Below are positions 31,577 to 39,476 of a stretch of 64,000 nt of DNA, piece after piece; position 1 is the first letter of the stretch, and every line of letters begins with the position of its first letter. The notes under the pieces were generated by a model. The model ran no database searches. It was not told the DNA's origin and saw nothing but the letters and a program-made list of their open reading frames with translations. The stretch is from contig NZ_CP102250.1 in NCBI RefSeq assembly GCF_025144995.1, forward strand, positions 2,604,001 to 2,668,000, in the 5' to 3' direction. The stretch comes from Alistipes indistinctus YIT 12060. GTDB lineage: Bacteria > Bacteroidota > Bacteroidia > Bacteroidales > Rikenellaceae. Made by a program: the position numbers and the translations under genes.

Positions 31577-32590
31577 ATGGAAAACAGCAAAACCAACATA
31601 TCCCTCAGGGCATTGAACAGTTTCGGGGTCGAGGCCTCGGCGGCACGGTATGCCGAATTTTCGGACGCGGAGCAGCTCCGGGCGTTTTTTGTGCGCCAAC
31701 GGGAGACCGGTGAACCGTGGTATGTGCTCAGCGGCGGCAACAATGTGCTTTTTACCCGGGACTATCCCGGTACGATCCTGCACCCTGTAGCGCGGGGTGT
31801 CACACGGCTTTCCGCAGGGGCGGACAAGGTGCTGGTACGTGCCGAAGCCGGTGTGGAGTGGGATGATTTCGTGGCATGGGCCGTCGGGTGCGGTTACGGC
31901 GGAGTGGAGAACCTCTCGCTGATTCCGGGTTATGTGGGCGCCGCGCCGGTGCAGAATATCGGGGCGTACGGCGCCGAGGTGAAGGATGTGATCCGCGAGG
32001 TGGAGCTCTACCGTCCGGATCTCGACCGGGTGGAGGTGCTTGCCGGTGAAGCGTGCGCTTTCGGTTACCGGGACAGCGTGTTCAAGCGTGAATTGCGCGG
32101 CCGTGCGATCATCCTTTCGGTGACTTTCGCACTGGACCTGAATCCCGTGTTCCGGCTCGGTTACGGCGACCTGAATGCGAAGGTCGCGGAGGCTGGCGGC
32201 CCGACGTTGCAGCGCGTGCGCGATGCGGTGGTCGGGATTCGCCGCAGTAAACTTCCCGATCCGCAGGAACTGGGCAACGCCGGCAGCTTTTTCAAAAATC
32301 CCGTGGTGCCGCGCGAGTTTGCGCTGCGTCTGCGCGAACGCTGTCCCGACATGCCTTTTTACGACGTGGATGCGGAGCGTGTGAAGCTCGCAGCGGGTTG
32401 GCTGATCGACCGTGCGGGCTGGAAAGGAAAACGCGAGGGATGTGTCGGGATGCACCAGCGGCAGGCACTGGTCCTGGTCAATTACGGCGGGGCGTCCGGC
32501 AGCGAGGTGCTCGCTCTGGCTCGCCGTGTGCAGCAGGAGGTCCGGGAACGTTTCGGCGTGGATATCGAAATGGAAGTCAATGTATTATAA
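31577..32590 (+). CDS. murB: UDP-N-acetylenolpyruvoylglucosamine reductase
   Basis: MurB reduces UDP-GlcNAc-enolpyruvate to UDP-MurNAc, the second step of peptidoglycan synthesis, using FAD and NADPH. The 337-residue protein is a type I MurB: N-terminal LRALNSFGV, FAD-binding LSGGNNVLF, LSLIPGYVGAAPVQNIGAYG, the YRDSVFKREL segment, the catalytic serine in GNAGSFFKNPVV and the late Glu near the C-terminus. tilS follows 27 nt later, so the two form an operon. Confidence 0.96.
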   Translation: MENSKTNISLRALNSFGVEASAARYAEFSDAEQLRAFFVRQRETGEPWYVLSGGNNVLFTRDYPGTILHPVARGVTRLSAGADKVLVRAEAGVEWDDFVAWAVGCGYGGVENLSLIPGYVGAAPVQNIGAYGAEVKDVIREVELYRPDLDRVEVLAGEACAFGYRDSVFKRELRGRAIILSVTFALDLNPVFRLGYGDLNAKVAEAGGPTLQRVRDAVVGIRRSKLPDPQELGNAGSFFKNPVVPREFALRLRERCPDMPFYDVDAERVKLAAGWLIDRAGWKGKREGCVGMHQRQALVLVNYGGASGSEVLALARRVQQEVRERFGVDIEMEVNVL

Positions 32591-36943: not shown

Positions 36944-38389
36944 TCAGAGCAGGTCTACGACCTTTTCGAGCTGGATGCCGCGCGAACCCTTGATCAGAAT
37001 GAAACGGTCGCGCAGGGGATGTTCGGCGAGATAGGCACGCAGCGCTTCCGTGTCTGCGAAGGGCCGGTAACCCGGCGTGTTGGCTCCCGCGAGAGCGAAA
37101 CGGTCGCCTACTAGGTAGGCTTCGCTGATCTGTAACCGGTGCATCAGTTCGATCATGCGCGCGTGTTCCGCTGCGGCGTATTCGCCCAGTTCGCGCATGT
37201 CGCCCAGGATGACGGCTTTGGGTTGAGCGGAGACCGTGGCGGCGAAATTTTCCAGCGCGGCCTGCATGCTCGACGGATTTGCATTGTATGCGTCGAGGAT
37301 CAGGGTGTTGTGCGCCGTCACTTGCTTTTGCGAGCGGTTGTTGTCCGGCGTGTAATCGGCGATCGCTGCGGCGGCCCCTTCCGGGGCGACGGCGAAGTAG
37401 GCGGCCATCGCCAGTGCGGCGGCGATGTTGTTCAGGTTGTAGTCGCCGACCAGCTTGCTGTGGATCGTGAGTCCTTCCCAACGGACGCCGATCATTTCAC
37501 CGTCGTCATCGCGTGTCAGGCCGGAAGCGTTGTACGGGATGGCGTATAGGTTCGGGCGCTCGGCGACCATTTCACTCAGGACGGCATCGTCGCTCAGGTA
37601 GAATGCCGTGCCGCTGTTCGCGGCCAGGTAGTCGAGCAGTTCGCCTTTGCCTTTGCGGACGCCTTCCGGTCCGCCGAAACCTTCGAGGTGGGAACGTCCG
37701 ATGTTCGTAATCAACCCGAAATCGGGGCGGGCGATCGCGCAGAGCTTTTCGATCTCGTGCCGGTGGTTCGCTCCCATTTCGACCACGGCGAAATCGGTTT
37801 CTGGCGTCATCGACAGCAGTGTCAGCGGAACCCCGATGTGGTTGTTCAGGTTGCCCTGGGTGACGGTCGTTTCGTATTTCTGCGACAGCGTACGGCCGAC
37901 CAACTCCTTGGTCGTGGTCTTGCCGTTGCTGCCGGTGATCGCGAGAATCATCACGCCCAGTTCGCTCCTGTGGTAGGCGGCCAACTCCTGCAATGCCTCC
38001 AGCGTGTCGGGGACGAGGATGTAACGGCTGTCTCGCCGGGACTCTTCTTCCGTGCACTCTTCGCAGGTGCATCCTGCTTCGTGGGGTGATCCGTGTCCGC
38101 AATCGCACCCGGAACTTTCGTGTTTGTCGCCGCAGTCGCAGGTATGGGCTTCATCGTCGTGGCCGCAAGAGCACGGAGCCTCCTCGACCAGCGGGATTAC
38201 TTTCGGATCGTCTACCACGACGGCAACCGCGCCGCTTTCCAGAGCTGCGGCGGCATACCGGTTTCCGTCGAAATGCTCGCCGTGCAGTGCGAAGAAGATC
38301 GAACCCGGTTCGATCCGGCGGCTGTCGGTCGAAATGTGCGGGTGCAGCAAGAATAGTTCGTATAGTTCGTGCAGCGTGTCGTTTTTCAT
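36944..38389 (-). CDS. murF: UDP-MurNAc-tripeptide-D-Ala-D-Ala ligase MurF with a Cys/His-rich insertion
   Basis: MurF adds D-Ala-D-Ala to the UDP-MurNAc tripeptide, ending the cytoplasmic peptidoglycan precursor steps. The 481-residue protein has the MurF N-terminal domain (STDSRRIEPGSIFFALHG), the ATP loop ITGSNGKTTTKEL (153-160), GVPLTLLSM, EMGANHRHEIEKL and the C-terminal domain (LILDAYNANPSSM, ILGDMRELG). Between the N-terminal domain and the ATPase domain, about residues 70-119, sits an insertion with nine Cys (73, 75, 84, 86, 95, 97, 107, 109, 112) and five His (77, 82, 90, 99, 103), mostly as CxC pairs, which I have not met in MurF. manC ends 1 nt upstream, so the genes are co-transcribed. 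Confidence 0.95.
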   Translation of the reverse strand: MKNDTLHELYELFLLHPHISTDSRRIEPGSIFFALHGEHFDGNRYAAAALESGAVAVVVDDPKVIPLVEEAPCSCGHDDEAHTCDCGDKHESSGCDCGHGSPHEAGCTCEECTEEESRRDSRYILVPDTLEALQELAAYHRSELGVMILAITGSNGKTTTKELVGRTLSQKYETTVTQGNLNNHIGVPLTLLSMTPETDFAVVEMGANHRHEIEKLCAIARPDFGLITNIGRSHLEGFGGPEGVRKGKGELLDYLAANSGTAFYLSDDAVLSEMVAERPNLYAIPYNASGLTRDDDGEMIGVRWEGLTIHSKLVGDYNLNNIAAALAMAAYFAVAPEGAAAAIADYTPDNNRSQKQVTAHNTLILDAYNANPSSMQAALENFAATVSAQPKAVILGDMRELGEYAAAEHARMIELMHRLQISEAYLVGDRFALAGANTPGYRPFADTEALRAYLAEHPLRDRFILIKGSRGIQLEKVVDLL

Positions 38390-38390
38390 G

Positions 38391-39476
38391 TCAGATGAAT
38401 TTGTCTCCGATCTTGTATTTGACGTCGTCGATGAATTTCTTGATGTTCTGCTCGTTGCTCTTCGGACAGATCATCAGCACGTCGTCGGTGTCGACCACGA
38501 TGTACTCCTCGAGCCCTTCGATAACGGTCAGTTTACCCTCTTTGTTCTTGACAATACATCCTTTGGTGTCGTAGAACAGGCACGGAGCGCTCTCCACATT
38601 GCCTTCGGGGTCCTTGGCCGAGTGTTGGTAGAGCGAACCCCAGGTGCCGATATCGGACCATCCGAAGTCGCTGCACCGTACATAAACGTTGCGCGCCTTC
38701 TCCATCACGCCGAAGTCGATCGAAATGCTGCGGCATGCGGGATAGATGTCGTCGATGGCCTGCTGTTCGGCCGGGGTGCCGTATTTGCCTTCTGCCGAAG
38801 CGAATAGTTGTTGCAGTTCGGGCAGGAATTCGTTCAGGTTCTCCATGATCGTGCCGACCTTCCAGATGAAGATGCCTGAATTCCAGAAAAATTCACCGCT
38901 TTCGATGAAGATTTTGGCCATCTCGAGATTCGGTTTTTCGGTGAAGGTCTTGACCTTGCGGATAGCCGGGCGGCCGTCGACCGGTACCGGGTCGATCTGG
39001 ATATAACCGTATCCGGTGTCGGGGCGGCTGGGCTGGATGCCTATGGTCATCATCGCATGTTGCCGTTCGGTGAATTCGGCGCTTTCGGATATTACTTTGC
39101 GGAACTCCTCTTCGTTGAGGATCAGGTGGTCGGCGGGGGTGACGATCATCGTTGCGTCGGGATTGACGCTTCGGAGCCGCCATGCGGCGTAGGCGATGCA
39201 GGGGGCCGTATTGCGCCCGACCGGTTCGCAGAGTACCTGATGCGCTTTCAGCTCGGGCAGGTGTTCGAGTACCAGCGGTTTGTAGATGCTGTTGGTCGCT
39301 ACGAGGAAGTTCTCCGGCGGGATGATCTTGGCGAAGCGTTCGTAAGTATGGCGGATGAAACTTTTGCCGGTACCGAGGATATCGAGGAACTGTTTGGGCT
39401 GCGAGCGGCGGCTGATCGGCCAGAAACGGCTGCCGATGCCTCCCGCCATGATAATGCAGTAGCGGTTTTGATCCAT
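38391..39476 (-). CDS. manC: Mannose-1-phosphate guanylyltransferase
   Basis: This enzyme makes GDP-mannose for glycan and polysaccharide synthesis. The 361-residue single-domain protein has the pyrophosphorylase signature IMAGGIGSRFWPISR with PKQFLDILG, then VTPADHLI, the FTEKPNLEMA motif and FWNSGIFIWK. It lacks the C-terminal phosphomannose isomerase domain of bifunctional forms. It is immediately upstream of murF. The product feeds mannose-containing envelope glycans, while MurF serves peptidoglycan, so the pair is linked by envelope synthesis. Confidence 0.95.
   Translation of the reverse strand: MDQNRYCIIMAGGIGSRFWPISRRSQPKQFLDILGTGKSFIRHTYERFAKIIPPENFLVATNSIYKPLVLEHLPELKAHQVLCEPVGRNTAPCIAYAAWRLRSVNPDATMIVTPADHLILNEEEFRKVISESAEFTERQHAMMTIGIQPSRPDTGYGYIQIDPVPVDGRPAIRKVKTFTEKPNLEMAKIFIESGEFFWNSGIFIWKVGTIMENLNEFLPELQQLFASAEGKYGTPAEQQAIDDIYPACRSISIDFGVMEKARNVYVRCSDFGWSDIGTWGSLYQHSAKDPEGNVESAPCLFYDTKGCIVKNKEGKLTVIEGLEEYIVVDTDDVLMICPKSNEQNIKKFIDDVKYKIGDKFI

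Follow-up and report, generated by a model that had tools for sequence, protein, structure and literature searches.

Cysteine-rich segments have been described in or on a few bacterial proteins, and a zinc protein has been linked to a Mur ligase before. MurT (PMC6085368) carries an ordered insertion in its central domain, which holds five cysteines, four of them as two CxxC pairs, and lies at the GatD interface; the insertion is described as largely conserved in Firmicutes, and no zinc was detected in the MurT samples. The bacterial metallothionein SmtA is a protein of 56 aa with a Zn4Cys9His2 core (PMC10119931). In E. coli, SlyD ends in an unstructured tail rich in His, Cys, Asp and Glu, to which up to 7 Ni bind (PMC7055735). 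The COG0523 GTPase MigC inhibits MurD, and in vitro its apo form was about as inhibitory (PMC12208494). Here we describe a MurF from an Alistipes genome with a Cys/His-rich segment in one of its loops, and we ask how it compares with these systems. The window mentioned below is the whole stretch of DNA that was analysed, 64 kb in length.

Results

The gene that encodes the enzyme and the neighbour upstream of it are as follows:

36944..38389, minus strand: murF, UDP-N-acetylmuramoyl-tripeptide--D-alanyl-D-alanine ligase, 481 aa, ATG start (TIGR01143, Pfam, fold)
37913..37933, minus strand: P-loop GSNGKTT of MurF, residues 153-159, intact in the translation
38391..39476, minus strand: nucleotidyl transferase with a ManC-like beta-helix, upstream neighbour (PF00483, PF22640)

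The protein scores 362.4 bits against TIGR01143, whose curated cut-off is 288.6, and a Pfam scan finds the three Mur ligase domains only (PF01225, PF08245 and PF02875). An alignment of 40 other Bacteroidota MurFs has 66 invariant columns, of which 65 are kept in our protein; it departs from them only at P298, with E in place of P. G153 and N155 to T159 of the P-loop are invariant in this alignment. The AlphaFold model (mean pLDDT 90.0, at least 90 at 376 of 481 residues) resembles the MurF of Acinetobacter baumannii, PDB 4qf5, with a Z of 36.4 and an rmsd of 2.7 over 418 aligned residues, and Foldseek gives an E of 1.4e-33 for the same comparison. The first-pass annotation had proposed that the extra segment is encoded in frame and without loss of any MurF motif, and both the conserved columns and the MurF fold agree with this. 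Sequence and predicted fold together point to a complete and otherwise ordinary MurF, and the enzyme is probably active. One base separates the nucleotidyl transferase stop from the murF start and, given this gap and the common strand, the two genes are probably co-transcribed. A MurB-type gene (PF02873) lies about 4.4 kb from murF, at 31577-32587 of the window. Rfam and tRNA scans of the 64-kb window gave no match.

The insertion itself can be divided into four units:

38033..38185, minus strand: Cys/His/acid-rich insertion, residues 69-119, 51 aa (translation, composition)
38141..38173, minus strand: unit 1, residues 73-83, CSCGHDDEAHT (translation; 11-residue period)
38108..38140, minus strand: unit 2, residues 84-94, CDCGDKHESSG (translation; period test)
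38072..38107, minus strand: unit 3, residues 95-106, 12 residues, CDCGHGSPHEAG (translation; period test)
38054..38071, minus strand: unit 4, short, residues 107-112, CTCEEC (translation)

Nine of MurF's ten cysteines are found here (residues 73, 75, 84, 86, 95, 97, 107, 109 and 112), the sole one outside being C217. They make four CxC pairs and one more Cys; two of the pairs stand within CxCxH (CSCGH and CDCGH), and there is one CxxC (residues 109-112). The insertion also holds five histidines (77, 82, 90, 99 and 103), 10 Glu and 5 Asp, its net charge is -12, and it is devoid of any V, L, I, M, F, Y or W. The nine cysteines and five histidines, mostly in CxC and CxCxH units, had been recognised in the first pass, and only the limits then given, 38033-38182, have been extended, to 38033-38185. 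Its position needed a slight correction. The segment had been placed between the N-terminal and ATPase domains, and it does precede PF08245, which starts at residue 151, but it lies inside PF01225 (residues 19-139) and not strictly between the domains. The AlphaFold strands that flank it are 56-59 and 123-125; by sequence and model, the insertion is a loop within the N-terminal domain, preceding that domain's last strand. The N-terminal domain of Mur ligases binds UDP. A look at the AlphaFold model, which had been suggested as a check, shows a confidently predicted MurF in which the central part of the insertion, residues 82-108, has a pLDDT below 50, which predicts disorder; metal binding is something that such a model cannot show.

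Cys, His, Asp and Glu make up 29 of the 51 residues, and because of this share, and because large hydrophobics are lacking, an ordinary hydrophobic core is unlikely. Judged by composition only, metal binding by the insertion is plausible. The earlier impression of a metal-binding loop is to this extent upheld by composition, but it found no counterpart among known metal sites: the insertion matched nothing in PDB sequences, Pfam or NCBIfam, whether pointing to a known metal site or otherwise, and no metallothionein family model was hit in the Pfam and NCBIfam searches, which went up to E 10 with HMMER filters that drop most weak matches. In the open-licence literature that we searched, no description of a Cys-rich insertion in MurF was found. 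Could the cysteines be a redox switch or a disulfide lock, sensing oxygen or oxidants and changing MurF in response? Disulfides are possible between paired cysteines, and Alistipes, to which oxygen would presumably matter, is described as strictly anaerobic (PMC7849707). Nine cysteines together with five histidines and 15 acids, however, exceed what a thiol switch needs, and the large hydrophobics that would hold an oxidised fold are absent, so that we regard this explanation as very unlikely indeed.

The composition is exceptional within the window. For Cys plus His per 50 aa, murF ranks top (14, the next having 10) among 50 window ORFs, a mechanically chosen, uncurated set of 18,049 residues which includes some false ORFs. 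At the window background of 1.6% Cys, at least nine cysteines in one given 50-residue stretch have a binomial P of about 9e-8, or roughly 0.002 when multiplied by the 18,049 residues. Codon usage fits the window's genes: the mean log-likelihood is -0.982 for the insertion vs -0.967 for the rest of murF, and the insertion scores at least as well as 56.8% of in-frame windows. For windows read in one wrong frame the mean is -1.436, and only 3.2% of them reach the value of the insertion. GC3 is 0.63 in the insertion vs 0.77 in the rest of murF, and its G+C resembles that of the surroundings and the host. An error of assembly or sequencing, a thought which the single carrier genome among those compared might encourage, is scarcely credible against a genome assembled as one contig and 99.89% complete, a frame that stays open through the segment, and host-like G+C and codon usage. 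Nor was a donor sequence found elsewhere in the genome; the best other DNA match is one of 21 bases (E 0.425), and copying of the insertion from another place in the genome was rejected on the same result.

To place the insertion among MurF relatives, we compared 216 MurFs, our own included, over the stretch between the conserved FFAL motif and the P-loop; the pattern parsed all 216, and only stretches of 55-140 residues were accepted. The 215 others come from all eight genus mates, from 127 of the 191 additional genomes searched in the family and from 80 other Bacteroidota, and they comprise 210 distinct stretches, one of them common to both collections. The family search covered 200 genomes, 198 of which had a match; G048 and G074 were omitted since their matches begin at a contig end, and the further family genomes that were left out had, among the matches listed, a weaker MurF-like paralogue only, or none. 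The 80 other Bacteroidota MurFs are the best 80 of 103 relatives from named genomes, and 40 of them were used in the alignment and model. Our MurF has a stretch of 121 residues with 9 Cys and four CxC. The stretch measures 72-74 residues with at most one Cys in the genus mates (8/8), 67-101 residues with at most three Cys in the 127 family genomes, and 67-94 residues, again with at most three, in the 80 other Bacteroidota; a CxC occurs in none of the 215. By sequence, the Cys/His insertion is a singleton among the 216 stretches compared. It had been held from the outset that other MurFs do not have such a segment, and a search in Alistipes and Rikenellaceae had been proposed; the 215 other loops all proved to be without a like segment, those of the eight genus mates and of the 127 of 191 further family genomes included, and the contrary case that had been named, a segment normal to MurF in all Bacteroidetes, did not occur. 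In a tree of 31 MurFs from which the insertion was left out, our MurF clusters with those of six genus mates out of eight; the support, 88/89, falls short of what the tool counts as a firm fork, and the end branch of our MurF is 0.41 long. With this placement, the gain of the insertion can be dated no further than to this end branch.

The same loop is enlarged in some other MurFs. One family member, L117 (from G036), has a stretch of 101 residues vs a family median of 70, its extra part being without cysteine, and L087 has one of 94 residues; the extra sequences of both are unrelated to the Cys/His insertion. In the Prevotella-type MurFs L071, L087 and L092 this loop contains extra peptides, e.g. 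NAQCIMHNAQY and NSQLYTLNSKL. These resemble translated repeat DNA, suggesting that the loop is a tolerant insertion site. Another family MurF, L203, has GSSGKTT instead of GSNGKTT in its P-loop.

The insertion alone was also used as a query. At E 0.05 or better it matched 13 of 268 family genomes, our own among them. The 12 other matches (E 0.003-0.046) fall in frames of 26-348 aa, except for that of G191, which has a frame of 447 aa on a different contig from the MurF of G191; as candidates for MurF they are ruled out by their frame lengths, and a rough look at these loci (one strand, or crude two-strand scoring) revealed no comparable Cys array. Among order genomes 3 of 393 matched at E 0.01 and among phylum genomes 5 of 395, each time including our own, the others lying in frames of 32-337 aa. 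The family, order and phylum matches are at chance level, with no convincing relative among them. BLAST of the insertion against phages and plasmids gave no match, a weak test owing to low-complexity masking. In its own genome no second similar peptide is found at E 10. The genome shows no excess of codons for CxCGH, with 12 sites (2 in the insertion) vs 12 for the backward control pattern; of the ten other sites, nine fall in frames of 26-195 aa, and one (L263) looks to be in a protein of the CDGSH type by its motif.

How did the insertion arise? The peptide has a period of 11 residues, with a p of 0.002 for that shift and of 0.048 after correction for 24 shifts, which makes the repeat weak and suggestive only. 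In the DNA, identity at 33 nt is 0.414, whereas 0.470 would be expected of this peptide written in murF synonymous codons. Tandem Repeats Finder detected no repeat in the insertion DNA, and another repeat finder gave two two-copy repeats, one of 17 nt (82%, 66 apart) and one of 18 nt (72%, 33 apart), of a short kind which, by the program's own warning, is often due to chance. A fresh slippage product is disfavoured because the period at the protein level has no matching period in the DNA. This makes a tandem duplication of recent date unlikely and an old one possible. These data bear on the main rival to a metal-binding loop, namely that of a neutral expansion, in which a tolerant loop collects arbitrary peptides and the Cys-rich, acidic one found here has no function. 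The loop does vary in length and content, with 67-101 residues and unrelated sequences in the 215 others, and a second carrier was not found among the 216 MurFs or in the family, order and phylum genomes. A random expansion would not, however, be expected to bring nine cysteines (four CxC and one more) at a Cys background of 1.6%, or to lack large hydrophobics, and a clear recent DNA repeat is absent, save for the two short ones. Since the loop site tolerates unrelated insertions in other bacteria, a neutral origin is plausible, but we consider it the less likely explanation.

Discussion

The Cys/His loop is a genuine sequence feature and a new variation on a known enzyme, surprising in its composition and found in one genome. 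With moderate confidence, from the analysis of this one genome, we interpret it as a lineage-specific, flexible metal-binding loop, similar to a metallothionein or to the SlyD tail and tethered to MurF. The insertion would have expanded a loop that tolerates changes in length, in a MurF that is ordinary in other respects, and its histidines and numerous acids, together with the four CxC pairs, might wrap soft or borderline metal ions. Zinc is perhaps the most likely of these, with copper or nickel possible. It may be that the loop folds only once it is loaded with metal, in the manner of a bacterial metallothionein or of the SlyD tail, and that the house-keeping enzyme MurF would in this way also buffer metal, or that the metal stabilises MurF locally. 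We counted against a metal-binding loop the single carrier, the weak period, the lower GC3, the two short DNA repeats, the lack of a match in Pfam, NCBIfam or PDB sequences, and the lack of a clear metallochaperone partner. A bolder suggestion, which we think decidedly doubtful, is that the loop ties the stability or activity of MurF to the zinc or copper status of the cell, so that cell-wall synthesis would have a metal gauge built into it. Is there a protein in the genome that could deliver the metal? PF02492 (COG0523 and HypB/UreG-type chaperones) has two matches in the own genome, of 25.1 and 24.5 bits with a cut-off of 20.7; their frames, 455 and 415 aa long, probably encode other GTPases. 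As these two low-scoring matches are the only ones, there is no clear G3E-type metallochaperone partner.

The genome also encodes a second MurF-like protein (L018, G000:C1:794302-795330, in an open frame of 821 aa), the Mur part of which keeps a P-loop, GSNGKTVTK, and the second half of which presumably resembles alanine racemase. Similar second MurF-like frames, of 777-816 aa, are present in the eight genus mates. Since the Mur part of L018 keeps its P-loop, the MurF described here may not be the sole one able to act.

Another role for the loop would be that of a docking element, a metal-stabilised arm for the binding of a partner. There are precedents: MurT, of the Mur ligase type, has a Cys-rich insertion of 50 residues, similar to a zinc ribbon, at its interface with GatD (PMC6085368), and in Acinetobacter baumannii MigC binds MurD and inhibits it (PMC12208494). 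The MurT insertion, however, belongs to the central domain and has CxxC pairs, whereas ours belongs to the N-terminal domain and has CxC; zinc was not detected in the MurT samples (PMC6085368), and the MurF insertion is predicted to be disordered and has no known partner. A docking arm thus seems to us very unlikely.

Why might such a loop matter? Should it bind metal, a metallothionein-like segment would have arisen inside a cell-wall enzyme, which is unusual, and a comparison of MurF with and without the loop would test cleanly whether a Mur ligase can respond directly to metal status. Should it be neutral, it illustrates the extent to which a loop of a conserved enzyme can drift harmlessly toward a metal-binding composition.

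In comparison with known systems, the protein is closest to MurF itself (TIGR01143; PDB 4qf5, 4cvk, 1gg4 and 3zl8), with which it shares the whole enzyme, the three domains, the P-loop and 65 of 66 columns; it differs from the MurFs of others, in all 215 of which the loop is shorter and without CxC, by the additional 51 Cys/His-rich residues. With MurT it has in common a Cys-rich insertion of about 50 residues in a Mur-ligase-type protein. The position in the central domain and the two CxxC pairs typical of the MurT insertion are not found in MurF, where the insertion lies in the N-terminal domain, has nine cysteines mostly as CxC, is predicted to be disordered and occurs in one genome. MigC and MurD set a precedent for linking a zinc protein with a Mur ligase, but there a separate GTPase acts on MurD and nothing is built into the ligase. 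Like the tail of SlyD, the insertion is attached to an enzyme, is rich in His, Cys, Asp and Glu and is apparently unstructured, but SlyD is an FKBP-type prolyl isomerase with the segment at its C-terminus, whereas ours is an internal loop of MurF, and the likeness need not mean homology. SmtA, finally, is a free small protein, unlike the MurF insertion, which matches no Pfam or NCBIfam family. The insertion does share one mark of an SmtA-type protein, about nine cysteines, CxC clusters and histidines in about 50 residues, and the two resemble each other in kind only: SmtA has Cys9His2 in 56 aa, and the insertion 9 Cys plus 5 His in 51 aa.
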